Of a stretch of 64,000 nt of DNA, positions 25,363 through 42,620 are shown piece by piece; the first letter of the stretch is position 1; the number at the start of each line of letters is the position of its first letter. Origin of the DNA: Thiocapsa bogorovii (lineage in GTDB: Bacteria; Pseudomonadota; Gammaproteobacteria; Chromatiales; Chromatiaceae); the NCBI RefSeq assembly GCF_021228795.1, contig NZ_CP089309.1, positions 3,038,001-3,102,000 on the forward strand. The letters run 5' to 3'. A program made the position numbers and the translations under genes. Under the pieces are notes generated by a model that saw only the letters and a program-made list of their open reading frames with translations, searched no databases and was not told the origin of the DNA.

Positions 25363-25880
25363 GATGTCTCGGCATGGGTGCTCTGCGGCGTGCTTGGCGA
25401 AACACGAAAGAGCGCGCCGACCTTGTCTTCCAAAGCCGCCAGATCCGCCTCGCTTGAAGCACGCTGATCCAAAACGTGGACGAAGAGCTCATTCCGAACG
25501 ATCTCGGCGCTCAAGGTTCCCGGCAGGAGGCTGATGACGGCCGTCATGAAGACACGCGCCCGACCGGGCGGAAGGCGAAACCGATAGGTCAGGATGCCGG
25601 GTGCGATGGGCAGAGTCGGCACACAGGCCCGCCAGGCGACATCGACCCCTCCACGCAGCGACCACCAGAGAAAGAAAGGAACGAAGCGGGCAAAACCGAC
25701 CACGGACCAGGGTACCGGACGCGACAGTGCCAGACTCAAGGCAGTGGCCAGCACAACAAAGAGACTGCCGAGCGGCCAAGAACCCGGCTGCCCCTCGGTC
25801 AACACCCACCACAGCAGCGAGAAGAGCGCCAGACGCAGCGCCAGTGTTCGCACAATCGGCAGGGGTCCTTGTAGTCGCAT
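25359..25880 (-). CDS. mrpE: Mrp-type antiporter subunit E
   Basis: 173 residues. N-terminal membrane helices (LALFSLLWWVLTEGQPGSW) and a C-terminal cytoplasmic domain containing RARVFMTAVISLLPGTLSAE and LFVHVLDQRA are typical of MnhE/MrpE. First gene of the nine-gene minus-strand antiporter operon. I use the ATG at 25880; an upstream ATG at 25949 would add a hydrophilic stretch absent from the family. Its promoter should lie in 25881-26081, divergent from the TPR-protein gene. Confidence 0.9.
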   Translation of the reverse strand: MRLQGPLPIVRTLALRLALFSLLWWVLTEGQPGSWPLGSLFVVLATALSLALSRPVPWSVVGFARFVPFFLWWSLRGGVDVAWRACVPTLPIAPGILTYRFRLPPGRARVFMTAVISLLPGTLSAEIVRNELFVHVLDQRASSEADLAALEDKVGALFRVSPSTPQSTHAETS

Positions 25881-26006
25881 CAGTCGTTCCGAAGGGGGTT
25901 GGACGTCTGCATGGTATGAAGGATAACCCTCGGAGTGCATCGTGCGCACCTCCCCCGGGTCTGCGGTGTGGCCATCGCTCGCAATCTCGCGGCGCTCTTT
26001 CGAAGC

Positions 26007-26035
26007 TGAAGGTTGCCGAGGAGTCGATGTATACT
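26007..26035 (+). promoter_or_regulatory. Candidate promoter of the chaperone/SNF2 operon
   Basis: A good -10-like TATACT lies at 26030-26035, 46 bp before the first ATG, but no convincing sigma70 -35 is at the right distance. Read instead as a heat-shock (sigma32-type) promoter, CTGAAG (26007-26012) and CGATGTAT (26026-26033) stand 13 bp apart, each with mismatches. Identification is tentative. Confidence 0.25.
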
Positions 26036-26081
26036 GGCAGGCCAGTCGTCCCCTCCTTTCGCCCCCTTAATTCGATTCGAT

Positions 26082-28697
26082 ATGGCAAGAAAGCAGAAGC
26101 GACCATCGCTCAAGGCTCGCCAGCAGACGTCCGCGGTGACTCCCGAGTCGGCGCGTGCCGATCTCGATGCCGGGCGCTTTCGCGAGGCGATGGCGGCTTT
26201 CAAGGAGCTGCTGAAGCAGGCCCCGGAAGGCAACGACAGGGATGCGCTTCGGGGCGGTCTTGCCGATGCCTACGAGGGACGGGCCCGTCAGCTCGGCGCC
26301 AAAGGCATGCACAAGGAGGCGCTGGTGATGTGGGAGAACCGCGCCGCGTCGGGGACACTCCCTGTGCATCCGGACCATGTCGTCTGCCTGCTCCGTCTGG
26401 GCCGTGTCGCTCAGGTCATGCCGATGCTGGAGGATCCCTCCTTAAAGGCCGATCCGGGATCCGGAGCGCTGCTGCTTGGCCACCTGGCGGCCCAGACGCT
26501 CGCCGGCACCGCCGGGATTGCCGAGGCCCTGCCCGCCGAGGATCCCATCCGTGTCCAAGCGACCGTCGCCGAGGAGGCGCTCGACGCCTATTGTGTCGGC
26601 AACGATCAGGCGCTCGCGCAGGCGCTGAAGGCGATCCCGTTCCGCTCGCCCTATCGTGATCTCGTCCAGATCCTCAAGGCATTGAGCCGTCTCGACCCCG
26701 CCGCGCGCGATCATCGGGGCGACTGGACCGAGGAGGCACGCAACGAGGGGGCCAAGCTCCTGGACCGCGTCGAGGACAACTCGGGCTTCGCCCGACTGCG
26801 CGATGCGGCTCGCCTGGCGCTGCTCTCCGAGATCGAGCTGGCACCCAAGCTCCGCGAGGTCGGCCCGGCGACACGCGATCTGGTCTTCTCTCTGCGCGGC
26901 TGGCCCGCCGAGCGCGCGATCCTCTGGAACGAGCTGCAGACCCTCGGCGATTCGCCGCAACCGAAAGAGCTTCTGCGTCTGATGTTTCGGCATCGCCGGG
27001 TACTCGGCGAGACCTGGGTCCACGAGCGTGGGCTGCGTCTGCTCTTGCCGAAACCGCAGACCGACGCGAAATGGTGGATCGAGGTCAGCGGCAAGCCGCT
27101 GCGCAAGATCGACGGCTACCTTCTGGATGCCTGGGAGAGCGAGGCGGATCCCGATCCGTGGAATGTCGTCACCTACTGGCAGGACTATGCGGACCTCCTG
27201 TTGGATGCCGCAGAACATCGCGTCGAGCCGGGCAGCGAGACCGCGTTGCGGATCGCGCTCGTTCGTCGTCGCGCCGAAACCCTCTTTCAAATCCTCCAGC
27301 GGATGGAGCCGGATTCCGACCCGGAGTCATTGCCGGGAACGATTGCGGCCGAGCTGGAATCCAGCCTCGAGTACGACCCCGACGACCGCGCCACCTATCT
27401 CGGGCTGATCGCCTATTACCTGCGCGGCGGCAAGGCGCTCAAGGACGCCCGCCGGATCCTCAAGCGCGCCCAAGACCACTGGCCGACCGACAAGGCGGTT
27501 CTGGCCGCCGCCATGGATACCGCCATCGCGAGCGGGGCCTTCAAGAAGGCGGCGACCATCGCGGCCGACATCCTGGCGGTTGATCCGATCAACAGCGGTG
27601 TGCGCGAGCGGCTGGTGGAGGCGCATCTCGCCCACGCGCGCAAAAACCTGAGGGATCAGCGGCCCGACTTGGCCATGAGGGCACTGGCCTTGGCCGAGGA
27701 CTGGAGCCGCACCGAGCGCACGCGTGAACGCTTGGATCTGGTGCGCGGTTTGGCCGAGTTGCTCGCGTTCGATCCGCAGGGCGAGGGACGTCTGCTCGCC
27801 CTGGCCGAGGGTCTCGGCAACGGACTGGCTGCACGCCTCATCCTCGTGCTGGAGGCGAGCGCCTGCGGTATTCTCGGGGCCCGGCTGTTGAAGCAGCTCG
27901 GGCTCTCCAAGTCACCCACACCCGACGAGGCCGACCTGCGAGCCTTCTTCTCGCGACTTAGGGCGCATCTGGACACGGGTGCCAAGCTCCCGAGCGAGGT
28001 CAGTCAACAGCTGAACGACCCGCTCAAACGCGCGGCCCGACTCAAGCTCGATCAGGCCGAGATCGAGTCGATCTGCGAAACCCTGCGACGCACCGAGCTG
28101 CACGATGCGCGGCTCGCCTTCGCGGATGCTGCCTTGAAGCGCTGGCGCGGCGAGCCGGTCTTCGAGCTGCATGCGTTCGAGGCCCGTCACCGCGGGGTTG
28201 TGCCCTGGAACATCCCGATGCGCGAGACACTGCGTTTGGAGCGGGCGCTCGAGCGCGCGCGCGACAACGGCGACTCGCGGCTGGTGCATCGGATCATCGA
28301 GGCCCTGAGCGGACCTTCGTTGCCCTTCGGTGGGCCACCGCGCGGTGGCTTCGGAGGCGGCTTCATCGACGACGTCTGGGATGACGAAGACGACGACATC
28401 GACGCCCCGCTCGTCGACGGCGACATGGACGGGAGGTCGATCGCGCTCCTCGCCGACATGGTTCGCACCCTCGGTCCAAGCGGCTTTCGCGCCCTGATGC
28501 AGATGCCGGGTCCGGTCGGCGAATCGATGCGCGCGATGGAGCGCGCAATCGGCAAGGACGCATTGGATAGGATGATCAACGCGCTGGCGGCGGACCTCGA
28601 TCTCGACGATCTGCCCTTCCCGGATTCGGGCATCTTCGACACCGGGCCGTCTCCGAGCACGCGCAAACGCAACCGCGCCAAACGAAAGCGCCGCTGA
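26082..28697 (+). CDS. Large TPR-like helical repeat protein heading the chaperone/SNF2 operon
   Basis: 871 residues, almost wholly helical. The N-terminal region shows TPR-like helix pairs (SARADLDAGRFREAMAAFKE, LADAYEGRARQLGAKGMHKE), and more appear near residues 445-540 (YLRGGKALKDARRILKRAQD). A Gly-rich and then strongly acidic stretch (about 760-790, GGFGGGFIDDVWDDEDDDID) precedes the C-terminal helices, and the protein ends in a basic tail (RKRNRAKRKRR). I do not recognise a named family. As first gene ahead of J-like, GrpE-like and Hsp70 genes it could be a client-binding or scaffold subunit. The ATG at 26082 fits the basic MARKQKRPS start; the upstream extension of the frame looks non-coding. 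Confidence 0.75.
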   Translation: MARKQKRPSLKARQQTSAVTPESARADLDAGRFREAMAAFKELLKQAPEGNDRDALRGGLADAYEGRARQLGAKGMHKEALVMWENRAASGTLPVHPDHVVCLLRLGRVAQVMPMLEDPSLKADPGSGALLLGHLAAQTLAGTAGIAEALPAEDPIRVQATVAEEALDAYCVGNDQALAQALKAIPFRSPYRDLVQILKALSRLDPAARDHRGDWTEEARNEGAKLLDRVEDNSGFARLRDAARLALLSEIELAPKLREVGPATRDLVFSLRGWPAERAILWNELQTLGDSPQPKELLRLMFRHRRVLGETWVHERGLRLLLPKPQTDAKWWIEVSGKPLRKIDGYLLDAWESEADPDPWNVVTYWQDYADLLLDAAEHRVEPGSETALRIALVRRRAETLFQILQRMEPDSDPESLPGTIAAELESSLEYDPDDRATYLGLIAYYLRGGKALKDARRILKRAQDHWPTDKAVLAAAMDTAIASGAFKKAATIAADILAVDPINSGVRERLVEAHLAHARKNLRDQRPDLAMRALALAEDWSRTERTRERLDLVRGLAELLAFDPQGEGRLLALAEGLGNGLAARLILVLEASACGILGARLLKQLGLSKSPTPDEADLRAFFSRLRAHLDTGAKLPSEVSQQLNDPLKRAARLKLDQAEIESICETLRRTELHDARLAFADAALKRWRGEPVFELHAFEARHRGVVPWNIPMRETLRLERALERARDNGDSRLVHRIIEALSGPSLPFGGPPRGGFGGGFIDDVWDDEDDDIDAPLVDGDMDGRSIALLADMVRTLGPSGFRALMQMPGPVGESMRAMERAIGKDALDRMINALAADLDLDDLPFPDSGIFDTGPSPSTRKRNRAKRKRR

Positions 28698-28741
28698 GCG
28701 GGCCGGCGCGGAGAGCCCGGCCAATCCGAACCCTGACCATC

Positions 28742-28825
28742 TGAACCGCGCCCCTGCCGACCCCGCGGGCCCGCGCGAGATCGAACCCAAACGACAGCGC
28801 CGCATGCCCCGCCGGGCGCGGTTCA
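28742..28825 (-). repeat. 84-bp-class inverted-end element, copy 4 (C)
   Basis: Perfect 12-bp inverted ends TGAACCGCGCCC (28742-28753) and GGGCGCGGTTCA (28814-28825). Read on the minus strand the first 25 bp (GCGGGGCATGCGGCG region) resemble copies B and E. It occupies most of the 150 bp between the TPR-like gene and the J-like gene, so it is transcribed inside the operon. Confidence 0.85.
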
Positions 28826-28847
28826 ACAACCACCGGACCCTGATCGC

Positions 28848-29141
28848 ATGACCGACCCCTTTCTCATCCTCGGCGTCCCCTCCGATGCGGACGATGCCGC
28901 CATCGAAGCGGCCTATCTCGCCGGTCTGCACCGCGCCTCCCCGGAGCGCGATCCGGCGGGTTTCGAGGCGTTGCGCGCGGCCTACGAGAAGATCCGCACG
29001 CGTCGCGATCGGCTCGCCTATACGCTCTTCGATCAGACCCCGCCGACCCCCGCGGACATCCTGGCCAAGGCCGCGCCCCTAGGCGAGCCGAGACGCCCGA
29101 AGCGGGCGACGCTGTCCGCGTTGCTGCGCGGCGAGGTCTGA
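28848..29141 (+). CDS. J-domain-like protein without the HPD motif
   Basis: 97 residues. It begins DPFLILGVPSDADDAAIEAA, the usual first helix of a J-domain, and has FEALRAAYEKIRTRRDRLAY matching helix III. The loop that should contain His-Pro-Asp reads HRASPERDP, so the catalytic HPD that triggers Hsp70 ATP hydrolysis is missing. It may act as a regulatory or targeting J-like subunit for the Hsp70 encoded two genes downstream. The stop is 3 bp before the GrpE-like gene. Confidence 0.8.
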   Translation: MTDPFLILGVPSDADDAAIEAAYLAGLHRASPERDPAGFEALRAAYEKIRTRRDRLAYTLFDQTPPTPADILAKAAPLGEPRRPKRATLSALLRGEV

Positions 29142-29144
29142 CGC

Positions 29145-29822
29145 ATGGAGGACGCAAAGGCGGCGTTGCTCGAGCGGTTCCGGGCCTACCTGGAGGAGGA
29201 ACCGAACGCACGCGAGGGCTCGGATGCGGGCATCGACGACACGGACGAGACCGACGCGCCCGATCTCTTCACCCTGCTCGCCGAGCTGGCCGCGCTCAAG
29301 AACGAGGTCAAGCTCGAGTCACGTCAGGTCAAGACCGCGCTCGAGCAGTTTCGCGACCTCTTCGACAGCCTCCGGCAGGCGAACGAGCATCTGTCGGCCG
29401 AACTCTCGCGGCGACAGCAGGATACCCGCGACATCGCCCTGAACGCCGAGCGCGACATCCTGCTCGAGCTCGTCGAGCTGCGCGACCGGCTACGGGACGG
29501 CCGCGGTCAGGCCGCCGCCTATCGGCCGAATTGGCTTGCGCACGCCAGCGGTGCAGCCGAGTTCATCACGGGGATGACCCAAGGCTTGAGCATGAACCTG
29601 CGCCGGCTCGACGAGACCCTGGATCGGCGCGAGGTGCGTCCGATCGAGACCGTCGGGCGGCCCTTCGATCCGCGGATCATGCGTGCACTCGAGGTCGGGC
29701 GCGATCCCGCCCTGCCGATCGGCACGGTTTTGGCGGAGCTGCGCACCGGTTATCGGCACGGCAAGTCGCTCTTGCGTCTCGCCGACGTCATCGTCAACAA
29801 ATTCGAGGACCATCCCCAGTGA
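29145..29822 (+). CDS. GrpE-like nucleotide exchange factor
   Basis: 225 residues. A long helical region (LLAELAALKNEVKLESRQVK to about residue 110) stands before a C-terminal beta domain with the GrpE pattern VGRPFDPRIMRALEVGRDP and LRTGYRHGKSLLRLADVIV. GrpE releases ADP from Hsp70. The sequence is diverged from housekeeping GrpE and its gene overlaps the Hsp70 start by 4 bp, so it is probably dedicated to that Hsp70. Confidence 0.85.
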   Translation: MEDAKAALLERFRAYLEEEPNAREGSDAGIDDTDETDAPDLFTLLAELAALKNEVKLESRQVKTALEQFRDLFDSLRQANEHLSAELSRRQQDTRDIALNAERDILLELVELRDRLRDGRGQAAAYRPNWLAHASGAAEFITGMTQGLSMNLRRLDETLDRREVRPIETVGRPFDPRIMRALEVGRDPALPIGTVLAELRTGYRHGKSLLRLADVIVNKFEDHPQ

Positions 29823-31588
29823 GCGACATCATCATCGGCATCGATCTCGGCACCACCAACTCCGAGGTCGCGGTGGTCGAGGAGGGGCGCGTCCGACTCA
29901 TCCCGGTCGACGGCAACCCCATCCTGCCCTCCGTGGTCGGGATCGCCGACGACGGCGCCCTCCTGGTCGGTCAGAGCGCACGCAACCAATACGTGCTGGC
30001 CCCGGAACGCACCATCCGCTCGGTGAAGCGGCGTATGGGCGAGGACACCGTCATCGCGATGGGCGCGCAACGCTACAGCCCGCAGGAGATCTCGGCGCTC
30101 ATCCTCGGCCGGCTCAAGCGCGCCGCCGAGTCCGATCTGGGCCAACCGGTGAGCAAGGCCGTCATCACGGTCCCGGCCTACTTCTCCGATGCGCAACGCC
30201 AGGCGACCCGCGATGCCGGTCAACTGGCCGGGCTCGAGGTGGTGCGCATCATCAACGAGCCGACCGCTGCGGCGCTGGCCTACGAGGTCGACCACCAGGA
30301 GCCCAAGACCATCCTGGTCTACGACCTGGGCGGCGGCACCTTCGACGTCTCGGTCGTGCGTCTCGCCAAGGAGGTGACCGAGGTCCTCTCGAGCCACGGC
30401 AACAACCAGCTCGGTGGCGACGACTTCGACGGGAGGATCCTCGATCACCTGGTCGCCCATCTCAAGGATCAGGGCACTGACCCGAGTGCGAACCGCGTCG
30501 CGATGGCGCGTCTGACCCGCGCGGCTGAAACCGCGAAGATCGCGCTCAGCGACGCCCCCTTCGTACGGATCGACGAGGAGTATCTGCTCGAGCACCAGGG
30601 CAAGCCGGTCAACCTGTCCCTGGAGCTCTCGCGCGACGACTACGAGGCGATGATCGCGCCCTATATCGACGAGACCATGGACGCGGTGCACACCGCGCTC
30701 GAGGGGGCCGGTCTGGGCATCGACGACCTTAGTGAGGTGTTGTTGGTCGGCGGCGCGACTCGCACCCCCTTGATCCAGCAGCGTCTCGAAGAGCTGCTGC
30801 GGATGCAGCCGCGCAGCGAGGTCGATCCGGATTTGTGCGTGGCGAGCGGCGCGGCCATCCAGGCGGCCGTGATCGGGGGGCAGCGCGTCTCGCGGGTGCT
30901 GGTGGACGTCACGCCCTACACCTTCGGGACCAGCGCGTTGGGCGAGCTCAACGGCGAGTTCTACCCCTTTGTCTATGTCCCTTTGATCCGCAAGAATACC
31001 CCGATCCCGGTGACCAAGAGCGAGGCCTTCTCCACCATCGAGGACGGCCAGCCCGCGATCGATGTGCGCGTCTACCAAGGTGAGGACCCGGACGCGCTCA
31101 ACAACACCGAGATCGGCGCCTTCCGCATTGAGGGTCTGAGCGACGCGCCGGCCGGCAACGTCATCGTCACCACCTTTTCGCTCGACGTGAACGGCATCCT
31201 CAAGGTGACCTCGCGCGAGAAGCGCACCGGACTCGAGCAGCGCATCGTCATCGACAACGCCACCGCCCGCTTCGAGCAGGACACCATGGCCGCCGCACGC
31301 GCTCGCATCGGCGCACTCATCGACGGCGACTTCAGCAGCGAGCCGAGCGATGGGTCTGAGACCCTCGGGGAAAGCGTCGCGGCGAGTGCCGAGCGACGCG
31401 ACAGCGTTCAGGCCACGGCCCTGATCGAAAAGGCCGAGCGCCTGATGGAGACCGCCAATGCGGAGGACCGCGAAGACCTGGTGAACCTGATCGAGACGCT
31501 GCGCGATGCGGTCGCGGCACACGACGATATCGCCATCCACGAGGCGATGGACGGGCTGTCCGATCTGATCTTCTATCTGGAATCCTGA
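29819..31588 (+). CDS. Hsp70-family chaperone (DnaK/HscC-like)
   Basis: 589 residues, against about 640 for DnaK. The nucleotide-binding domain is complete: IIIGIDLGTTNSEVAVVEEG, VITVPAYFSDAQRQATRDAG, IINEPTAAALAYEV, LVYDLGGGTFDVSVV, EVLLVGGATRTPLIQ. A substrate-binding domain follows (VDVTPYTFGTSALGE, VRVYQGEDPDALNNTEIGAF, VNGILKVTSREKRTG) with a shortened helical lid and no EEVD-like tail. GTG at 29819 overlaps the GrpE-like stop (GTGA). The composition is that of a specialised Hsp70 with its own cofactors, linked by operon structure to the SNF2 ATPase downstream. Confidence 0.93.
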   Translation: MSDIIIGIDLGTTNSEVAVVEEGRVRLIPVDGNPILPSVVGIADDGALLVGQSARNQYVLAPERTIRSVKRRMGEDTVIAMGAQRYSPQEISALILGRLKRAAESDLGQPVSKAVITVPAYFSDAQRQATRDAGQLAGLEVVRIINEPTAAALAYEVDHQEPKTILVYDLGGGTFDVSVVRLAKEVTEVLSSHGNNQLGGDDFDGRILDHLVAHLKDQGTDPSANRVAMARLTRAAETAKIALSDAPFVRIDEEYLLEHQGKPVNLSLELSRDDYEAMIAPYIDETMDAVHTALEGAGLGIDDLSEVLLVGGATRTPLIQQRLEELLRMQPRSEVDPDLCVASGAAIQAAVIGGQRVSRVLVDVTPYTFGTSALGELNGEFYPFVYVPLIRKNTPIPVTKSEAFSTIEDGQPAIDVRVYQGEDPDALNNTEIGAFRIEGLSDAPAGNVIVTTFSLDVNGILKVTSREKRTGLEQRIVIDNATARFEQDTMAAARARIGALIDGDFSSEPSDGSETLGESVAASAERRDSVQATALIEKAERLMETANAEDREDLVNLIETLRDAVAAHDDIAIHEAMDGLSDLIFYLES

Positions 31589-31627
31589 GTCGGGATTTCT
31601 TGGTTCCGGCTCTGCCAGGTTAAGGTT

Positions 31628-32005
31628 ATGGACCGTTGCCCCAATTGTCGCGCCCGCGTCGACAGCTCGGAGCAGTGCCGCCGCTGCGGGCTGGAGCTGA
31701 AGCTGCTGCAGGCAACCGATCGAGCAAGCGATGAAGCCGTCGCACGCGCCATCCGCCGTCTCGCCGATGACGACAGGGCCGGCGCCATCCGTGATCTGAA
31801 GCAGGCGCGGGCCTTGTCGGGGGGCGCGTTCGTCTCCGCCCTCCTCGACTTTGCACGTTCGACACCCTCTCGCGAGTCCGCCCATGACACTACACCAGGC
31901 CCTCTGGCTCCTGACTGCCGAGCAACTGAAACAGCGCCGCAACCTGCTGCTGAACGGGAATCGCTCGACCCGCAAAGCGGACATGGTCGAGGCGATCTCG
32001 CATGA
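31628..32005 (+). CDS. Small zinc-ribbon protein
   Basis: 125 residues. The N-terminus MDRCPNCRARVDSSEQCRRC has two CxxC pairs of a zinc ribbon. A helical part follows with TPR-like character (ARAIRRLADDDRAGAIRDLK, LSGGAFVSALLDFARS). From residue 86 on it overlaps the next gene by 122 bp in another frame, and there the sequence looks unstructured, so the last third may simply be read-through of the overlap. The ATG follows the Hsp70 stop by 39 bp with a weak AAGG ahead. Function unknown. Confidence 0.65.
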   Translation: MDRCPNCRARVDSSEQCRRCGLELKLLQATDRASDEAVARAIRRLADDDRAGAIRDLKQARALSGGAFVSALLDFARSTPSRESAHDTTPGPLAPDCRATETAPQPAAERESLDPQSGHGRGDLA

Positions 32006-33716
32006 GCTCTTGTCGGCGGATCTAAGCCAGTACTGGGGGCGGCTCTCCGAGCTCGAGCAGAACGCCGTCGCCGAGAGCGTTCATCGCTGGGGCGGGTTTT
32101 TCGATCGTGCAGGCTTCAAGGCACGATACGGCTCGCTTCCGATCGCCTTCGAGCCGCCGGCCTATTCCTATTCGCGGTCCGACCGCGACCGCCGGGAGCG
32201 GGGTTCGCTGCTGCCGCTCTTCTTCTACGACGGATCGATCCCCGAGGATCTCTGCAAACGACTGGCGTCGATCGTGGCGGTGCCGACGCCGCTCGAGATT
32301 GCGAGCTTCGCCGACGAGGACCTGCCGGCGAGCATTGCCTCGGCAAGCGTCCTGAAGCCCGATGAGGACGTGTCCGAGCCGCTGCGGCGTCTCGCCACCG
32401 AGCCCCTGATCCATCACGACCTGCCCGGCGTGTTGCGCCTGATCGGTCAGGGTCGCATCACGGTCGGCGCCAAGACGGGTCTGCCGAGCAGCGCCTCCAT
32501 GACCAAACTCGAGACCGTCCTGCTCGGCGGTGACTGGTACACCGCGGACGATGACTTGGAGCAGCCCCGCTGGGCCGGTGGTCCGATTCGGCCTATTCGC
32601 CCCTTTGCCTGGCCGCTTCTGCTGCAGGCCGGCGGGCTCGCGAAGGCCGACGGCAGCAAGCTGGTCCTGACTGCCCGCGGCAACAAGGCGCTGTCTCAGC
32701 CGGTCGAGGAGGTGGTCTCGCACCTGTTCGCGCGCTGGCAACAGAAAGGCACACCCGATGAGCTGCGGCGCGTCGACCTGATCAAGGGTCAGACGGCCAA
32801 AGGCGTGCGTCTCAGTGCGGTGTCGGAACGCCGAGCGGTCATCGCCGATGCGATCCGGGACTGCTGTCCGCCGGGTCGCTGGGTGGCCATCGACGAGCTC
32901 TTCCGGCAGATGCAGTTCCGGGGTCGCCGTTTCACGGTCACCGAGAACGCCTGGGGGCTGTATTTCGTCGATCAGAACTATGGCAGCCTCGGATACAACG
33001 GCGCCGACGGATTCGAGATCCTCCAGGGTCGCTACATCCTCGCCTATCTCTTCGAGTATCTCGCCACACTCGGCATGCTCGATGTCGCCTACACCTCGCC
33101 CTACGACGCGCGGTCGGATTACGGCGACGCGTGGGGGGTCGACGAGTTTGCCTTCCTGAGCCGTTACGACGGACTCAGGTACATCCGGCTCAATGCGCTC
33201 GGCGCCTACTCTTTGGGGCTTGCCGAGACCTACGAGCCCTTGCTACCGAAACGAGCCCCGCTATGCTCGATCGGCGCCGATCTGCTCCTGACCGTCGAGC
33301 GCGAGCCCGAGCCGGCCGAGCGGCTGGTGTTGGAGCAGATCGCCAAGCCGCTCTCGGCGATGCTTTGGCAACTGGATCCCGATGCCCTACTGCGGCAGAG
33401 TGCCGACCCCGGCGAGAGAGGACGCATCCGCGCGTTCATCGAGTCGTCGACGGACGCAGGCCTGCCGGCCGAGGTCGGCCAACTGCTCCGCGACGTCGAG
33501 GAGCGCGCCAGCGCGCTCGCCGATGCCGGCCCGGCGCGGCTTGTCACATGCCGCGATCCCGCCATCGCGGTCATGCTGACATCGGATCCCGTCACGGCCC
33601 CGCACTGCACGCGCGCGGGCGAGCGCCTGGTGTGTGTCCCCGAGCCCAAGCTCGCGGCCTTCCGGAAGGGGCTTGCCAAGCTGGGCTTCGTGCTGCCGGA
33701 GACCACCAATGGCTGA
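31884..33716 (+). CDS. Unknown conserved-looking protein coupled to the SNF2 ATPase
   Basis: 610 residues, no family recognised. The N-terminus has a SAP-like helix-turn (LKQRRNLLLNGNRSTRKADM). The middle contains segments that read as winged-helix units (AVIADAIRDCCPPGRWVAID, LFRQMQFRGRRFTVTEN; YILAYLFEYLATLGMLDVAY), somewhat like the helper regions found beside bacterial XPB-type helicases. No nuclease or ATPase motif is visible. The gene overlaps the SNF2 gene by 8 bp, so the two products are likely partners. The ATG at 31884 is chosen over one at 31851 because the family-like helices begin there. Confidence 0.75.
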   Translation: MTLHQALWLLTAEQLKQRRNLLLNGNRSTRKADMVEAISHELLSADLSQYWGRLSELEQNAVAESVHRWGGFFDRAGFKARYGSLPIAFEPPAYSYSRSDRDRRERGSLLPLFFYDGSIPEDLCKRLASIVAVPTPLEIASFADEDLPASIASASVLKPDEDVSEPLRRLATEPLIHHDLPGVLRLIGQGRITVGAKTGLPSSASMTKLETVLLGGDWYTADDDLEQPRWAGGPIRPIRPFAWPLLLQAGGLAKADGSKLVLTARGNKALSQPVEEVVSHLFARWQQKGTPDELRRVDLIKGQTAKGVRLSAVSERRAVIADAIRDCCPPGRWVAIDELFRQMQFRGRRFTVTENAWGLYFVDQNYGSLGYNGADGFEILQGRYILAYLFEYLATLGMLDVAYTSPYDARSDYGDAWGVDEFAFLSRYDGLRYIRLNALGAYSLGLAETYEPLLPKRAPLCSIGADLLLTVEREPEPAERLVLEQIAKPLSAMLWQLDPDALLRQSADPGERGRIRAFIESSTDAGLPAEVGQLLRDVEERASALADAGPARLVTCRDPAIAVMLTSDPVTAPHCTRAGERLVCVPEPKLAAFRKGLAKLGFVLPETTNG

Positions 33717-36700
33717 CGCGCTTGCCGCCTATCGCGCGCTTCCGGCAGACGAGCAGCGGATCCTGCGTGTGCTCTCGGTGATCTGCGAGCCGGTTGCACG
33801 AGACCGGCTGCAACAGATTCTGAACGCCTTGGATTGGCGCGATCGGGCAGGCGCGTCTCTGAGTCGGCACGTCGACGAGGCCCTGATCCGGCGCTTGGTC
33901 GGGTCCGGCCGGATCCAATCGGAACGCAGCGCGCTCGCCTGTCACCCCGATCTGCTCGAACCCCTAACGCGGGAGACGCTCGCCGACGGCACCTTCGAGG
34001 CGATTGTCGCTGCGGCCGAGCGGGTCCTTCCGGTCGTCCCCCCGAACGCCCCGACCTGGCTTGTGCCGAGTCCCGAGCGGCGCTTGCGGATGCTCCGTGT
34101 CGCCCTGTACGCCGGGCGTCAGGATGAGGCGCTGCGGATGTTCGCCTTGAGCGATCAGGTGTCGTTGAGCGGATTGTCCGCGGCCCATGTGATGCCGCTG
34201 ACCCGGGTCATGACGTCCTCGACGGACCTCGCCTGGTTGGAAACACTCGACCCGCGGCTCAAGATCGCCGGTCTGGTTCCGCCGTTGCGCCTGGCGGCCC
34301 GCGATATGATCGAGCGCGACGACGTCTACGCCCTCATCGAGCAGCTCTTCGTCCCGCTCCTCGGCACCCATCCCGAGGCCGCCGACGCCCTGATCGAGCA
34401 GAGACTGCAGCGCGGCCGGCTTGCCGAGGTTCCGTCCTTGCTGGACGGACGCAGCGATCCTGCGGCGTCGGTTCAGCGCGGTTGGCTGCAGTTCCTGTTC
34501 GGCCACTACGAGCAGTCGCTCGACGTCTTCGATGCAGCACGGGAGACCATCCGCAAGGCGACCCGCAAGCGCAAGGTCTATCTCCCCGGGATCCCCGGGG
34601 TTCTGGCGCTGCTGACACGTTTGCGGCGCGGCGAGCGGGAGGACTTCGAGTTTGTGCAGCAGCAGGTTGCGATCGCGCTGCGCGCCGACGTGACAGACCC
34701 CGTCGAACCCGTGTATCGGCTGCTCGGCGAGTTGTCGGCCGTCTTGGCCGGACAGCGTCGAGTGGACGAGTGCGCCTGGCTGGAGCAGCGTCTGGGGTTG
34801 CGCGGCGCCTTTGTGCTCCTGTTCCAGTCCTTGATGCTCCATTGGCTCGGCGAGCGGCCGGCGCCCGAAGCGCTCGACGTGCTCGCCGGGTGGGCTGCGA
34901 AGGCGCATCAAGCCGGCTTCCTCTGGTACGCCCACGAGGCATCGGCACTCCTGGATGCCTTCGATTTCGAAGGTGAGCGCCCACAGCTCGGCAAGCCGCC
35001 CGCGGGTCTGGTGTCGATGTCTGATCTGCTCGCACGCAAGGCGACCTGGGAGATCGCGCTCGATGCGCTCAAGGGACTCGGCGTCCAGGCTGCGCCCGGT
35101 GTCGATGCGCGTGAGGGCGCAGACCGGCGCATGGCCTGGCAGATCCGTTTCATCCAAACGACAGGCATGCTCGAGCCGCGCGAGCAAAAGCGCACGAAGC
35201 GCGGCGGTTGGACCAGCGGTCGTGCCGTGTCGATTCAGAAGCTTGTCGAAGAGCCCGACAGCTTCGGCTATCTGACCCCGCAGGACCGCGAGATTTGTGC
35301 CTGTATCGTCCGCGAGCAGGGATCGACCTGGTACGGCGGATACGACCGTCTGAGCTATCGCTTCGATGCCGACCGCGCCCTGCTCGCCGCGGTCGGTCAC
35401 CCGCTGCTGAGCGTTCGCCGGCGTCAGGGCGACAGTGTCACCGAGCTTCCGCTTGAGTTGGTTGTCGGCACGCCTGTCCTCTCGGTGGTTCGGCGTCATC
35501 AGGATATCCTGGTCACCATCGAGCCCTTCCCGCCGGAAGGGCGTTCGCTTCTGCCGGTCGATGAAACCCCGAAACGCGTCCGTCTGTTTCAGTTTGAGCT
35601 CGCCCATCGCGAGATCGCCCGCATCCTGGGTCCGGAAGGTCTAAAGGTTCCTCAAGGCGCCGAGAAGCGGCTGCTCGAGGGGCTGGCCGCCGTGGCCCCG
35701 ATGGTCACCGTCCATTCGGATATCGCCGGGGACGACAGCGCCGCCGAGACCATGCCCGCCGACGCCCGGCCCCACCTGCATCTCATTCCCTTCGCGACCG
35801 GTCTGAGCCTGGAGCTGCGCATCCACCCGTTCGGCGACAGCGGTCCGCAGCTTCTGCCGGGGGAGGGGAGGGCAACCCTGCTCACCGAGTTCGAGGGGCG
35901 CGCCGTACGCTGCTCCCGCGACCTCGAGGGCGAGCGCACCGCGGCCCGCGAGGTGCTCGACGCCTGTCCCGCGCTCCGCGACAACGAGTCTTGGAGCTGG
36001 TCGCTCGACGACCTTGAAGTGGCGCTGACCACGCTGGAGCAGCTCCATGCGCTCGGCGAGACGGTTGTTCTGGAGTGGCCCGAGGGCAAGCGGATCGGAC
36101 TGACTGCCGAGATGCAGATGGCTTCTCTACGCGTCAAGATCGAGCAGGAAGGCGACTGGCTCGACCTGCAGGGCGAGATCCGGCTCGATAGCGGTCGGAT
36201 CGTCCTCATGCAGGAGCTGCTGGATCTGGCGGCTGCCGCGAAGGGGCGTTTTATCCCGCTCGGCGAGGGTGACTTTCTGGTCCTCAGCCAGGCGTTGCGG
36301 CGCAAGCTCGACGGCGTGCGTGGTCTGACCGACAACGGCCGCTTCCACCCGCTTGCCGCACCGGCCATCGCCGAGGCGATCGACGGGATGACGCTTGATG
36401 CCGACAAGGTCTGGCAAGCCCTGCTCGATCGCCTCGCCGCCGTCGAGGAGCTGGAGCCGGAGATCCCGTCCACGCTGCAGGCCGAGCTGCGCGACTACCA
36501 GGTCGAGGGTTACCGCTGGCTCGCCCGGCTCGCGCATTGGGGCGCCGGTGCCTGTCTCGCCGACGACATGGGTCTTGGCAAAACCCTCCAGGCATTGACC
36601 CTGATCCTGTCGCGCGCGCCCAAGGGTCCGACCCTCGTTTTGGCGCCCACCTCGGTCTGCGGCAACTGGGTCGACGAGGCGCAGCGTTTCGCGCCGACCC

Positions 36701-37860
36701 TGCAGCCGCTGCGCTTCGGCCCCGGTGATCGAGCGGCCATGCTGGACGCCGCCGGTCCCTTCGATCTGATCCTCTGCAGTTACGGCCTCCTGCAAACCGA
36801 AGGGGAGCGTCTGGCCGCGGTGTCCTGGGAGACCATCGTCGCGGACGAGGCCCAGGCGTTCAAGAATGCCCTGACGAAACGCTCCCGGGCCATCATGAAG
36901 CTCAAGGGCGGCTTCCGGATGATCACCACGGGTACGCCCGTCGAGAACCATCTCGGCGAGCTGTGGAACCTCTTCCGCTTCGTCAATCCGGGTCTGCTCG
37001 GCTCGCTGGAAACCTTCAACCGCCGTTTCGCCATCCCGATCGAGCAAAACAAGGACGCGGGCGCGCGGCATCGTCTCCGCCAGCTGCTGCGGCCCTTCAT
37101 CCTGCGTAGACTCAAGAGCGAGGTCCTGAGCGAGCTGCCGCCGCGCACCGAGATCACCTTGAGGCTGGAGCTGAGCGACGGCGAGCTGGCACTCTACGAG
37201 GCGATGCGCCGACAGGCCGTCGAACGCCTGTCCGACCCGGAGGCGGCGGCCAACCCCGGCCAGCAACGCATCCAGCTCCTTGCCGAGATCATGCGTCTAC
37301 GCCGCGCCTGCTGCCATCCGCGTCTGGCGCTTCCGGACAGCGATCTGTCGAGTGCCAAGCTGGATGCCTTCAATGAGATCCTCGACGAGCTCTTGGAGAA
37401 CCGCCACAAGGCGCTCGTCTTCAGCCAGTTCGTCGACCATCTCGCACTGATCCGCGCCCATCTCGACGCCCGCGGCATCCGCTACCAATATCTCGACGGC
37501 TCCACCCCCGAGCCGCAGCGGCGTGCCGCCGTCGCCGCCTTCCAGGCCGGAGAAGGCGACCTTTTCCTGATCAGCCTGCGCGCCGGCGGCGTCGGTCTGA
37601 ATCTCACTGCCGCCGACTATGTGATCCACATGGATCCTTGGTGGAACCCGGCCGTCGAGGATCAGGCCTCCGACCGCGCCCACCGGATCGGGCAGCAGCG
37701 TCCGGTCACCGTCTATCGGCTGGTCGCCAAGGATACGATCGAGGAGCGGATCCTGGCGTTACATGCCGCAAAGCGCGATTTGGCGGATGGCTTGCTCGAA
37801 GGCAGCGAGGGCGGGGGGCGTTTGAGTTATGCGGATATGCTGGCGTTGGTGCGCGGCTAA
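33709..37860 (+). CDS. Large SNF2-family ATPase/remodeller
   Basis: 1383 residues. The C-terminal 460 residues form a full SNF2 motor: LRDYQVEGYRWLARLAHWGA, Walker A DDMGLGKT (about 952-959), LVLAPTSVCGNWVDEA, Walker B DEAQ (1046-1049), TGTPVENHLGELWNLF, LVFSQFVDHLALIRAHL, SLRAGGVGLNLTAADYV and SDRAHRIGQQRPVTVYRLV. The first 900 residues are helical and then beta-rich and match nothing I can name; they contain no visible nuclease or methyltransferase. The motor probably translocates on double-stranded DNA or displaces protein from it. Its stop TAA is formed by the end of repeat copy D. Confidence 0.9.
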   Translation: MADALAAYRALPADEQRILRVLSVICEPVARDRLQQILNALDWRDRAGASLSRHVDEALIRRLVGSGRIQSERSALACHPDLLEPLTRETLADGTFEAIVAAAERVLPVVPPNAPTWLVPSPERRLRMLRVALYAGRQDEALRMFALSDQVSLSGLSAAHVMPLTRVMTSSTDLAWLETLDPRLKIAGLVPPLRLAARDMIERDDVYALIEQLFVPLLGTHPEAADALIEQRLQRGRLAEVPSLLDGRSDPAASVQRGWLQFLFGHYEQSLDVFDAARETIRKATRKRKVYLPGIPGVLALLTRLRRGEREDFEFVQQQVAIALRADVTDPVEPVYRLLGELSAVLAGQRRVDECAWLEQRLGLRGAFVLLFQSLMLHWLGERPAPEALDVLAGWAAKAHQAGFLWYAHEASALLDAFDFEGERPQLGKPPAGLVSMSDLLARKATWEIALDALKGLGVQAAPGVDAREGADRRMAWQIRFIQTTGMLEPREQKRTKRGGWTSGRAVSIQKLVEEPDSFGYLTPQDREICACIVREQGSTWYGGYDRLSYRFDADRALLAAVGHPLLSVRRRQGDSVTELPLELVVGTPVLSVVRRHQDILVTIEPFPPEGRSLLPVDETPKRVRLFQFELAHREIARILGPEGLKVPQGAEKRLLEGLAAVAPMVTVHSDIAGDDSAAETMPADARPHLHLIPFATGLSLELRIHPFGDSGPQLLPGEGRATLLTEFEGRAVRCSRDLEGERTAAREVLDACPALRDNESWSWSLDDLEVALTTLEQLHALGETVVLEWPEGKRIGLTAEMQMASLRVKIEQEGDWLDLQGEIRLDSGRIVLMQELLDLAAAAKGRFIPLGEGDFLVLSQALRRKLDGVRGLTDNGRFHPLAAPAIAEAIDGMTLDADKVWQALLDRLAAVEELEPEIPSTLQAELRDYQVEGYRWLARLAHWGAGACLADDMGLGKTLQALTLILSRAPKGPTLVLAPTSVCGNWVDEAQRFAPTLQPLRFGPGDRAAMLDAAGPFDLILCSYGLLQTEGERLAAVSWETIVADEAQAFKNALTKRSRAIMKLKGGFRMITTGTPVENHLGELWNLFRFVNPGLLGSLETFNRRFAIPIEQNKDAGARHRLRQLLRPFILRRLKSEVLSELPPRTEITLRLELSDGELALYEAMRRQAVERLSDPEAAANPGQQRIQLLAEIMRLRRACCHPRLALPDSDLSSAKLDAFNEILDELLENRHKALVFSQFVDHLALIRAHLDARGIRYQYLDGSTPEPQRRAAVAAFQAGEGDLFLISLRAGGVGLNLTAADYVIHMDPWWNPAVEDQASDRAHRIGQQRPVTVYRLVAKDTIEERILALHAAKRDLADGLLEGSEGGGRLSYADMLALVRG

Positions 37861-37941
37861 ATCGCGTCTTGCGGTCAATCGCGTGGCTTGAGTAGCGGGC
37901 GGGGTCGGAGTAGGGCGATGTCTCGGCGGGGACGCGATTTA
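37858..37941. repeat. 84-bp-class inverted-end element, copy 5 (D)
   Basis: Perfect 11-bp inverted ends TAAATCGCGTC (37858-37868) and GACGCGATTTA (37931-37941); both ends carry the same compensating change (ATCGCG/CGCGAT) relative to ACCGCG. The left TAA is the stop codon of the SNF2 gene. The interior is unlike copies B and E. Confidence 0.85.
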
Positions 37942-38015
37942 GGAGATTAGGATCAGGTTTGTGACTCGCGATTGTCCCGTTTCGGAGTGAGATCGAAAGC
38001 GCGTCGGACGCGTTC

Positions 38016-38050
38016 ACCGGGATAGTCGACTTGCAGTCGACTATCCCGGT
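38016..38050. terminator. Perfect 16-bp hairpin downstream of the SNF2 gene
   Basis: ACCGGGATAGTCGACT (38016-38031) and AGTCGACTATCCCGGT (38035-38050) are exact inverse complements around a 3-nt loop. The hairpin is very stable and lies 156 bp after the SNF2 stop and 89 bp beyond the end of the convergent kbp gene. There is no T-run, so a factor-independent terminator is not certain; an mRNA-stabilising hairpin or palindromic binding site is also possible. Confidence 0.6.
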
Positions 38051-38103
38051 TGCTTCCCATGTACCGCATCCCGCGACGTGACCGGAGCGCCGGCGCAGGT
38101 TTC

Positions 38104-38130
38104 GGTGGCCTTCGCTCTCGCTCGTCCACC
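38104..38130. repeat. GGTGGC...TCCACC short palindromic repeat, copy 2
   Basis: GGTGGCCTTCGCTCTCGCTC followed by GTCCACC and CTAC. It matches the unit at 8536-8562 in its ends and core and is again intergenic. Confidence 0.5.
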
Positions 38131-38138
38131 CTACCTGG

Positions 38139-38576
38139 CTAACCGGCCGACTTGGGAATGCGGATCTTCTGCCCGGGGTAGATGAGGTTGGCGTCTTTGA
38201 TGACCTCTCGGTTCGCCTCGAAGATGCGCGGATAGGCGTTTGCGTCGCCGTAGTATGTCTTGGCGATGGCCGAGAGCGTGTCGCCTTTCTCGATGACGTA
38301 GAAGTCGACCTCGGCGGTCTGGGGCGGTGCGGTGAGCTGATCGGCCTTGACCTCCGCGACTCCCTTCACATTTCCGGCCATGAGCACGGCCTTCTCCATG
38401 GCCTCCGGGCTCTCTGCCTCGCCCGTCAGCGAGACAACCCCGTTGTCGTAATTCACGGTCAATCCCTTGACCCCGGGGTTGTCTTGCTCGATCTCCGCTT
38501 TGATCTTCTCCCCCGCCTCTGCGTCGTTTCCGAAGAGTTTCTTGCCGATGTCTTTCGCGAAATCGAAGAGTCCCAT
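38139..38576 (-). CDS. kbp: BON-LysM protein, Kbp/YgaU-like
   Basis: 145 residues. An N-terminal amphipathic start (MGLFDFAKDIGKKLFGND), a BON domain (VKGLTVNYDNGVVSLTGEAE) and a C-terminal LysM domain (YVIEKGDTLSAIAKTYYGDA, LIYPGQKIRIPKS) reproduce the architecture and length of E. coli Kbp (YgaU), a cytoplasmic potassium-binding protein made in osmotic stress. I start at the ATG at 38576, which matches the MGLF start of the family; the open frame continues 22 codons upstream. A decayed second copy lies about 800 bp away. Confidence 0.88.
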   Translation of the reverse strand: MGLFDFAKDIGKKLFGNDAEAGEKIKAEIEQDNPGVKGLTVNYDNGVVSLTGEAESPEAMEKAVLMAGNVKGVAEVKADQLTAPPQTAEVDFYVIEKGDTLSAIAKTYYGDANAYPRIFEANREVIKDANLIYPGQKIRIPKSAG

Positions 38577-40349: not shown

Positions 40350-41582
40350 ATGAGCCAGACCCAATCGATTGCTGCTTCAGCGACGGCGAACGCAGATGCC
40401 ATCGCGACCGCGACCCCTATGCAATATCTGGACAAGGCCATGAACGGCCTTCACGATCTAGGGCTGCTTCCGAACGAGGGCGACCGCCAAGCCGACCCGA
40501 TCGTTGCGCTCTTGAATCAGATCTCGACCCTCGATGAAGGTCGCGTGACCGCCATCGCGAGGACACTAAGCCAAGCGTCGCTCTTCAACGACGTCGTGCG
40601 TCAACAGGTTCAGGCGATGGAGATCGGTAGTCGGTACGAGGACATCACCAACGCCTTCAACAGTATCCGAGACGATGCCAAGACGATGGTGGATCAGATC
40701 GAGGACGGAAAGCTCGACACCTTCGAGCGGATGAGCAACGTCTGGATGAAGGTTACACGCGGTGACATCGCAGCGCGTTTCGACAAAATCAAGAAAAGCT
40801 ATCTGGATGTGACCGCCGCCACCGACGACCAGATTCAGCGCGAGCATCGGATCCTGGAAGCCTACCAAGATTTTCGCGGTGCTCTGAAGCAGTCAGAGGT
40901 GCTGGCGCTCGAGGTCCTTAAGACCGCACAAGGTCGGCTGGACGCGGCGAAGGCGGCGCTGGACGCGTCGATGAAACGGGTCGAGGCGCATACCTCGGGC
41001 GAGCCTGCCGAGCGCGCCCGTCTTGAGTTGGCCCGCGACGAACAGGTACGCGCACTGCAGCTCGAAGAGAAGCGCTATCAGATCGCCAAGGATCTGTCCG
41101 ACAACCTGACCATCTCCTACAACACCTCCGAGGTGGTCATGGCGCGCCTGCTCCAGACAACCAATGCCAAGGAAAGGGTCTATGCTCAGGCCGTGAGCTT
41201 CTTCAGCACCAACGAGGTCGTCCTGACCGCGCTCACCGCATCCTTTACCGGGATGTTCGGGCTGCACGAAGGGACGCAGACGGTGGAGGCGATGAAGGAG
41301 GGCGTCAGTCAGTCGCTCGAGGTCTTGGCCGATATCGGTGGCAAGGTCCAGGAAGCGGCGGTTCGGGCTGGCTATGGGCCGACCGTGCGCGCCGACGCGG
41401 TGAAGAAGCTGGTCGACTCCGTGGTGACCTGGCAGACCCGATCGCACGAGATCATCGAGGAGATGCGCGTCCAAAGCACCCGCAATGCCGAGGAGATCCG
41501 CGACGCGGTGGAGGAAGGCAAACGCAAGCTCGCGCGCCTCGCCGAGGAGGGTAACGGGCTTGAGCTCGCAGTCGACGCATGA
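40350..41582 (+). CDS. TelA-like (toxic-anion-resistance family) helical protein
   Basis: 410 residues, helical, soluble. The segments NAKERVYAQAVSFFSTNEVV, LTALTASFTGMFGLHEGTQT and VKKLVDSVVTWQTRSHEIIE resemble the TelA/KlaA family, named for tellurite resistance though its biochemistry is unresolved. A long charged helix (about 190-250) precedes this part. The strong AGGAGG fixes the start. The stop overlaps the next gene by 4 bp, making a tight operon with the next two genes. The family match is by eye and moderately sure. Confidence 0.6.
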   Translation: MSQTQSIAASATANADAIATATPMQYLDKAMNGLHDLGLLPNEGDRQADPIVALLNQISTLDEGRVTAIARTLSQASLFNDVVRQQVQAMEIGSRYEDITNAFNSIRDDAKTMVDQIEDGKLDTFERMSNVWMKVTRGDIAARFDKIKKSYLDVTAATDDQIQREHRILEAYQDFRGALKQSEVLALEVLKTAQGRLDAAKAALDASMKRVEAHTSGEPAERARLELARDEQVRALQLEEKRYQIAKDLSDNLTISYNTSEVVMARLLQTTNAKERVYAQAVSFFSTNEVVLTALTASFTGMFGLHEGTQTVEAMKEGVSQSLEVLADIGGKVQEAAVRAGYGPTVRADAVKKLVDSVVTWQTRSHEIIEEMRVQSTRNAEEIRDAVEEGKRKLARLAEEGNGLELAVDA

Positions 41583-42535
41583 GCACGGAGACACTCCCGG
41601 ACACCGGTGCGCGACCCGCCGCCGAAACCGCGCAGCGCGCCATGATCGCCGGCAGCACGCATCCGCTCGACGAGGTTATGCTGGCGATGGACGTCGTGGA
41701 TACGCTCAGACGTCGCGAGCGCCTCGCCGAGACCGAGCTCGACGACCTGGGTCGCGAGGAGGATCTCAAAGAGCGTTTGCGTAAGATCTACGCGGCTCAA
41801 GGAATCGATGTCCCGGACCATGTGATCGCGCAAGGCGTGGCGGCACTCAAGGAAGGACGCTTCACCTACTCCCCGCCGCCACGCTCGCTGGCAACCCGGC
41901 TTGCCCGGATCTACGTCAAACGCGGCGACTGGGGAAAATGGGTCGGCGGGATCCTGGGCGTCATGATCCTCGCCGCCGTCATCCAGTATGTCTCGTTCGT
42001 GGCCCCGAATGCCGCCTTGCCCGATGATTTGGCGCGCGTTCACACGGAAGCCATCGCGCTGGCCGGAGACGACCAAGCGCGCGAAACCCTCGAACGCTAC
42101 TTCGGTGCAGGTCTGTCCGCGCTGCGCAACGACGACACCGAAGGCGCCCGGCTTGCACTGCGCGAGCTTGAGACCGCCTTGACGACCTTGGGGCAGGAGT
42201 ACAGCCTGCGTATCATCAACCGTCCGGGCGAGCAGACCGGTGTTTGGCGCGTTCCTGACCTGAATACGAATGCGCGCAACTATTACATCCTGGTCGAAGC
42301 CGTGGATCCGACGGGACGGGTGCTCCGTGTGCCGATCCGCAACGAAGAGACCGGTGAGACCGAGACAGTGGCCGTCTGGGGGCTTCGCGTGGACGAAGAG
42401 ACCTTCAACAGCGTTGCGCGCGACAAACAGGACGATGGCATCATCGAGCGCGACCGTTTCGGCTACAAGGCACGCGGCGTGTTGGTTCCGCGGTACGACA
42501 TGCGCACGACCGGCGGGGCCATCACGCGATGGTAA
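41579..42535 (+). CDS. Single-pass membrane protein of unknown function
   Basis: 318 residues. The N-terminal cytoplasmic part has a helical motif (LDEVMLAMDVVDTLRRRERL) and KIYAAQGIDVPDHVIAQGVA, a proline turn (FTYSPPPRSLATRLARIYVK), one membrane helix (WVGGILGVMILAAVIQYVSF, about 120-138), then an extracytoplasmic domain with helical repeats and a beta-rich end (YYILVEAVDPTGRVLRVPIR, YKARGVLVPRYDM). I do not recognise a characterised family. ATGA overlap with the TelA-like gene suggests that the products work together. Confidence 0.75.
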   Translation: MSTETLPDTGARPAAETAQRAMIAGSTHPLDEVMLAMDVVDTLRRRERLAETELDDLGREEDLKERLRKIYAAQGIDVPDHVIAQGVAALKEGRFTYSPPPRSLATRLARIYVKRGDWGKWVGGILGVMILAAVIQYVSFVAPNAALPDDLARVHTEAIALAGDDQARETLERYFGAGLSALRNDDTEGARLALRELETALTTLGQEYSLRIINRPGEQTGVWRVPDLNTNARNYYILVEAVDPTGRVLRVPIRNEETGETETVAVWGLRVDEETFNSVARDKQDDGIIERDRFGYKARGVLVPRYDMRTTGGAITRW

Positions 42536-42620
42536 GAGCCGGTCCTGCGCCTGCCGGAGCGCGCCGCGCCGCGGCTCGGTCCAACTTCGCGGCAGGAACC
42601 GCTCACTCTGGAGACTGCAC

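Follow-up and report, generated by a model that had tools for sequence, protein, structure and literature searches.

Do the seven genes at 26082-37860 of this Thiocapsa bogorovii DNA encode one molecular system, or several that happen to be neighbours? The stretch analysed, hereafter the window, is 64,000 nucleotides long and comes from a genome of 5.65 Mb held in a single contig. In order, the genes specify a TPR-repeat protein, a J-like protein, a GrpE-family nucleotide exchange factor, an Hsp70, a small zinc-ribbon-like protein, a 610-residue protein (p610) and a SNF2 ATPase. The original prediction, made from the sequence alone, described a single operon joining a divergent Hsp70 system to a DNA motor. 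We find that the genes form two units: a five-gene Hsp70 cassette (TPR, J-like, GrpE, Hsp70 and zinc ribbon) and a p610-SNF2 pair. The cassette is conserved, apparently undescribed and of note in its own right, apart from the pair. A weaker functional link between the two units survives.

The distribution of the genes identifies the units. We fetched 68 stretches around matches to the cassette TPR protein, some of them cut by contig ends. These comprised 32 from Chromatiaceae, 20 from another class, and 16 from a mixed set (ten genomes of the Accumulibacter genus, two others and four more from Chromatiaceae). The complete cassette, on one strand and always in the order TPR, J-like, GrpE, Hsp70, zinc ribbon, is present in 52 of the 68 (26/32, 12/20 and 14/16 for the three sets, respectively). 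The 16 incomplete cases are truncated by contig ends, masked or decayed, or contain only the TPR, J-like and GrpE genes or, in the other class, only TPR or TPR with J-like. The cassette TPR protein occurs in 38/146 genomes of the family, 37/147 of the order and 27/398 of the phylum; in the phylum sample all matches except that in the window's own genome belong to the other class. On plasmids, cassette-type GrpE gave no match at 1e-4. The p610 protein is present in 25/146 family genomes and in 2/185 genomes sampled from the class, counting the window's own genome. SNF2 adjoins it in 23 of 25 genome stretches (L039-L063), the remaining two being a short contig (L061) and an other-family locus (L063).

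The two units seldom meet. Among L039-L063, chaperone genes lie beside p610 only in G322 (T. marina) and G306. Among the best 80 of 205 p610 loci they do so twice, both times in Thiocapsa: L156 has all five, and L157, where the contig begins at that point, has the zinc ribbon only. Seen from the cassette, 70 stretches (the 68 plus two from Thiocapsa) include p610 and SNF2 only in Thiocapsa L039 and L051; of these, L039 is the T. marina locus that also appears as L156. The units are physically joined in the window, G306 and G322, and a fourth Thiocapsa record has zinc ribbon, p610 and SNF2 in succession. On long contigs that carry both, megabases separate them (e.g. in G290, G259, G288, G211 and G783). 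Among the stretches examined, cassette and pair stand together only in Thiocapsa. The idea of one conserved seven-gene system is rejected: in relatives, the chaperone genes and the SNF2 pair lie mostly apart, and what remains is a link in trans.

Variation between close strains, which the original prediction proposed to check, was indeed found. The Thiocapsa genome G254 has the same flanking genes and retains the cassette without the pair. By blastn, positions 31451-31975 of the window directly adjoin 37881-38041 there, and 5,905 bp are missing. Approximately 92 nt aligning with the start of p610 remain. Hence, we infer that an ancestor had the pair and that it was lost while the cassette was kept. 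In G206 the right-hand breakpoint is the same as in G254, but masked bases are present. For G306, SNF2 matches over its full length. The G306 p610 (G306:C1:3337820-3339648; L019, L031) consists of two overlapping pieces in different frames, owing to a frameshift or a sequencing error.

Co-occurrence speaks for a link in trans. In the family, 21/25 genomes with p610 also encode the cassette TPR protein, compared to 38/146 overall; when cassette-type GrpE is also counted the figures are 22/25 and 40/146. By genus, 9/11 p610 genera have the cassette versus 17/61 (Fisher 6e-5). A regression that included genome size, limited to the 128 genomes whose size is listed and not corrected for kinship, gave a likelihood ratio of 18.2 (p = 2e-5). 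In Accumulibacter, the TPR protein is found in 11/28 genomes and the close type of p610 with SNF2 in 3/28, all three of which have the TPR protein; the chance of this, worked by hand, is about 0.05. A TPR match is also present in one genome having a SNF2-type pair with p610 at 44% identity. For genomes with other p610 types the figure is 2/13. In the genomes searched, the cassette is found without the pair, and the close pair seldom occurs in the cassette's absence. Thus, of the predicted connection between chaperone and SNF2 motor, conserved adjacency falls and a weaker link in trans is supported.

Of the cassette proteins, the J-like protein departs furthest from its family. It scores 18.6 bits against the Pfam DnaJ cut-off of 27.8, and its profile matches solved J domains (best 2e-08). 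A canonical J domain has HPD at the loop between helices II and III, and none of the J-like rows does. At the HPD position, histidine is found in 0/62 rows and proline or serine in 61; row L290, off by one, reads PPE. According to a 2026 review, even conservative changes to HPD abolish stimulation of Hsp70, and only HPE seems tolerated, in DjlB and DjlC with HscC (PMC13254874). The GrpE is a normal family member (69.7 bits; Pfam cut-off 25.8), as is the Hsp70, whose PF00012 match spans residues 5-581 and so covers both nucleotide and substrate domains. This Hsp70 falls short of the NCBIfam dnaK cut-offs (prok_dnaK, 521 versus 822.55 bits; PRK00290, 536 versus 648). In a tree of 54 rows, a strong branch (100/98) splits the cassette Hsp70s from E. 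coli DnaK, from the presumed DnaK of the window's genome and from HscA. Addition of HscC, which like HscA is a very long row, reduced support for the split to 58/88. The cassette Hsp70 thus stands apart from DnaK and HscA, and the placement of HscC is unsure.

Two known systems invite comparison. As in DnaK-DnaJ-GrpE, an Hsp70, a GrpE and a J-type protein occur together. The cassette differs in that its Hsp70 shares 41% identity with the best other Hsp70 of the genome, a presumed DnaK encoded elsewhere, and in that the 97-residue J-like protein has no HPD. E. coli K-12 HscC is likewise a specialised Hsp70 with neighbouring J genes, djlB and djlC, in which HPD is altered to HPE, as described in PMC13254874. 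However, the cassette J-like protein has lost the histidine itself, and GrpE, TPR and zinc-ribbon genes are added. Whether the two Hsp70s are kin is uncertain, given the very long row that HscC forms in the tree.

Many cassette TPR proteins end in a motif of the beta-clamp (sliding-clamp) type. We scored the last 15 residues for the canonical consensus, Q-phi-x-[L/M]-[F/L] or the six-residue form, as given in PMC11139829, and for a relaxed version, Qxx[LM]. The canonical motif is present in 22/67 TPR proteins and the relaxed motif in 39/67. Among 388 other long open reading frames (ORFs) of the same stretches, picked by length so that some may not be genes, the counts were one and two. By lineage, canonical and relaxed counts were 10 and 16 of 36 in Chromatiaceae and 12 and 13 of 20 in the other class. 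An earlier count with a broader pattern, now superseded, gave 14/32 and 16/20, with 0.4% for shuffles and 39/1582 for a background from which TPR ORFs were not excluded. The window's own TPR protein has a basic tail, RKRNRAKRKRR. Four Thiocapsa rows, the window's included, end in such a run of lysine and arginine; a fifth, L144, is broken. Similar tails are present in L135, L139, L352 and L357. In L292-L299, from the other class, TPR stands alone or with J-like, GrpE and Hsp70 were not found nearby, and a QLEMDL-type tail is kept.

We also asked what kind of protein p610 is. It precedes SNF2 at 27/80 loci and lies within 500 bp of XPB at 20/80. Neither motor is alongside at 33/80, some of which come from contig ends, and both are present at 0/80. 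Among the XPB-type loci are those of Competibacter relatives and of cyanobacteria; most SNF2-type loci come from Chromatiaceae and Accumulibacter. Helicase_C_3 was detected in 38/50 family members at E 0.1 (best 2.7e-12), and the window's p610 has only a weak match to it (0.022), its sole Pfam match. These neighbours, XPB or SNF2, together with the Helicase_C_3 part, suggest that p610 is a helicase partner accompanying motors of two kinds. Hence, the protein that had been put down as unknown is not wholly so. The family resembles a bacterial XPB with its neighbour gene; it differs in the window, where the neighbour is SNF2. Archaea have an XPB-Bax1 pair, named in PMC3353954, and that paper states that an XPB partner complex in bacteria had not been identified. 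A SAP-like N-terminal part of p610 is weak (2/50 members, 0.055). Solved structures gave no relative of p610 at E 1 and six weak matches only to the N-terminal part of SNF2 (best 0.054). A single-protein scan confirmed no viral carriers of p610.

Our tentative preference, plausible without being probable, is that the cassette is a dedicated Hsp70 machine acting on DNA-bound complexes or at the replication clamp; one possible client would be the p610-SNF2 pair. The TPR protein would act as the scaffold and keep the machine on DNA; many species would do so via the C-terminal clamp-type motif, Thiocapsa perhaps via the basic tail. The HPD-less J-like protein would place Hsp70 on this scaffold without the usual ATPase kick. 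GrpE would recycle Hsp70, and the zinc-ribbon protein would be a small adaptor. The pair would be a translocase on double-stranded DNA, its accessory subunit being of the XPB-neighbour kind. The cassette probably loads, remodels or removes p610-SNF2, or other motors, at sites of replication or repair. The Thiocapsa arrangement would put one such client into the cassette's operon. A narrower version seems doubtful to us: a chaperone machine that rides the clamp by its TPR tail, has a non-stimulating J recruiter and loads or strips motors such as p610-SNF2, the Thiocapsa tail being basic instead.

Several observations weigh against this reading of the cassette. Four J-like rows have HPE a few residues past the HPD position. 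Loss of J function in these four is not certain because HPE is the variant that the review calls tolerated (PMC13254874). Even the relaxed clamp motif is missing from 20/36 Chromatiaceae TPR rows, and the Accumulibacter and mixed rows have it only in relaxed form (canonical 0/11, relaxed 10/11). No Thiocapsa TPR row counted, the window's included, has a clamp motif, and a clamp link in the window's own organism is not predicted by it. The TPR rows are related and their counts are not independent; the comparison does not amount to a significance test, and the tails had been noticed before they were counted. Co-occurrence weakens within four bands of genome size (p = 0.16, 0.03, 0.10 and 0.22). 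Of 15 genomes with a SNF2-type pair, several of them also in the family set, five whose p610 is at 40-45% identity gave no TPR match. G311 has a close pair (p610 at 58%) and no cassette match. In the other class, a search without a positive control found p610 in 0/20 TPR-positive genomes. Finally, two clusters of neighbouring ORFs, at 21 and 12 loci, turn up repeatedly around cassettes.

The strongest competitor is that two unrelated units abut by chance in Thiocapsa. The pair would have landed downstream, sharing at most the cassette's transcription. This is a genuine possibility that we nevertheless find rather unlikely. It accommodates an adjacency confined to Thiocapsa, the absence of the pair from G254 with the cassette kept, and the pair-bearing genomes without cassette TPR protein noted above. 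Consistent with it, 20 plasmid records carry relatives of SNF2 residues 440-890, and these do not overlap with the 14 records that have a p610 relative. Furthermore, two of the six plasmid contexts read, both enterobacterial, place SNF2 behind recombinase, transposase and AAA ATPase genes, and 53/80 p610 loci have XPB or neither motor alongside. Counting against chance abutment are the 22/25 p610 genomes of the family that have the cassette, an association that extends beyond genome size and to 9/11 genera, and the three-of-three result in Accumulibacter. On the Serratia and Klebsiella plasmids L303 and L304, the place of the SNF2 relatives behind recombinase, transposase and AAA ATPase genes looks like that of transposon cargo.

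A second alternative is that the cassette duplicates DnaKJ-GrpE for general proteostasis and has no role at DNA or the clamp. TPR proteins are common chaperone scaffolds. The normal family signatures retained by Hsp70 and GrpE fit this explanation, as do the 28/67 TPR tails without even the relaxed motif. However, such a duplicate needs a working J protein, and the histidine of HPD is gone in 62/62 rows. It also leaves aside the clamp-type tails, which occur in three lineages, the third in relaxed form only. We consider a proteostasis duplicate unlikely.

The original prediction allowed for a stress or defence function, SNF2 motors being known from DISARM and Zorya. In PADLOC, DpdE models match SNF2 residues 446-1383, the motor domain included, at up to 642 bits, and the motor part also matches ZorD models (347 bits). 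Curated models tell a different story: for SNF2, NCBIfam DpdE gave 35.1 bits against a cut-off of 500, ZorD 232.9 against 1500, DrmD_b 86.5 against 950 and DrmD 48.3 against 610. No ZorA, ZorB or other Drm protein was found among the seven ORFs and ten flanking ORFs scanned. On these curated scores and the lack of partner genes among the scanned ORFs, membership of DISARM, Zorya or Dpd is not supported, no genome-wide search for DpdA or other Dpd partners having been made. PADLOC found nothing in the TPR, J-like, Hsp70, zinc-ribbon or p610 proteins, three weak matches in GrpE (best 0.0063) and, among the ten flanking ORFs, one weak match to LmuB (2.4e-06, 25 bits) in a coiled-coil-like ORF. 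The 50 p610 members had no PADLOC match at 0.01, and Pfam matched no nuclease family among the seven ORFs. Anti-phage defence, with SNF2 as a DNA-targeting motor and the chaperone set arming or sensing, is therefore improbable, despite the PADLOC scores of SNF2, the patchy distribution of p610 (25/146) and two plasmids, from Cupriavidus and Polaromonas (L032, L034), that carry p610 relatives close to Wadjet and Hachiman defence genes.

Other systems share parts of this gene content. The motor domain of SNF2 is also that of the NCBIfam SCO1167/SCO6262 and pilus-regulating Snf2 helicases (SCO1167, 480 bits; pilus_reg_Snf2, 395), but the cut-offs of 1200 and 1100 are far away. GAP1-N2 GTPase conflict systems, which have HSP70, GrpE, DnaJ or TPR fusions according to PMC7159879, offer a similar neighbourhood of Hsp70 with GrpE and J or TPR; unlike them, no GTPase family was matched by Pfam in the window's seven ORFs. 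Type III CoCoNuT, as described in PMC11090510, places an Hsp70-like protein in a neighbourhood that can include SWI2/SNF2 ATPases. Here, Pfam found no McrB or McrC family in the seven ORFs. The Hsp70-like proteins of CoCoNuT are likely poor ATPases in the same description (PMC11090510), whereas the window's HSP70 match is full-length.

The 2026 review asks whether J proteins with a replaced HPD act as recruiters, enriching Hsp70 locally without stimulating it (PMC13254874). Here, a bacterial cassette keeps an HPD-less J-like protein beside its own Hsp70, its own GrpE and a scaffold whose tail is a candidate address tag. Hence, the question of such recruiters becomes testable in vitro on the purified components. 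Should the clamp tag prove real, a dedicated Hsp70 would be placed at the replication or repair machinery. No description of the cassette in print was found in the literature searched, most subscription journals lying outside the search.

The gene calls beneath these comparisons are sound. All seven ORFs are open on the plus strand with coordinates as first described, and Pfam bears out the GrpE, Hsp70 and SNF2 identities (Table 1). Both overlaps first reported are present, 4 bp between the GrpE and Hsp70 genes and 8 bp between p610 and SNF2; a further overlap, 122 bp between the 3' end of the zinc-ribbon gene and p610, had been missed. The zinc-ribbon protein has no Pfam family above cut-off. 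The seven ORFs are not chance because orthologues of every one occur in other genomes. A promoter scan of 25700-38400 was uninformative (none found; 0.9 expected in shuffles).

Table 1. Features of the locus, in window coordinates.
Feature	Position	Strand	Details
TPR-repeat protein, cassette gene 1	26082-28697	+	871 aa; Pfam TPR_19 5.6e-10
J-like protein, cassette gene 2, SPE in place of HPD	28848-29141	+	97 aa; Pfam DnaJ 0.0021, below cut-off
GrpE-family nucleotide exchange factor, cassette gene 3	29145-29822	+	225 aa; Pfam GrpE 3.2e-19
Hsp70, cassette gene 4, GTG start	29819-31588	+	589 aa; Pfam HSP70 1.3e-145
Zinc-ribbon-like small protein (CPNC...CRRCG), cassette gene 5	31628-32005	+	125 aa
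p610, XPB/SNF2-neighbour family, Helicase_C_3-like C-terminal part (weak here)	31884-33716	+	610 aa
SNF2 ATPase, ~900-residue N-terminal part	33709-37860	+	1383 aa; SNF2-rel_dom 2.4e-61, Helicase_C 1.1e-24
Segment missing at the same locus of Thiocapsa genome G254 (L124)	31976-37880	.	blastn

The surroundings of the locus provide some minor observations. A partly palindromic 25-base stretch (38017-38041; 22/25 against its own inverse) lies just downstream of SNF2. G254, G206 and G322 have a further inverted copy, close to where the missing segment has its right-hand breakpoint. Beyond the cassette genes themselves, clusters of ORFs recur near cassettes at 22, 21, 12 and 6 loci. By eye, the 22-locus cluster looks antisense and the 21-locus cluster starts like a transporter. 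Next to the locus, three genes, one of them for a DUF6384 protein (400 bits), occupy 40350-44108; the set also lies beside it in Thiocapsa L124, L144 and L156. Further away, on the minus strand at 6708-6994, Rfam matches the 5' ureB sRNA (131.9 bits), perhaps reflecting a mere conserved stretch of urease coding sequence.

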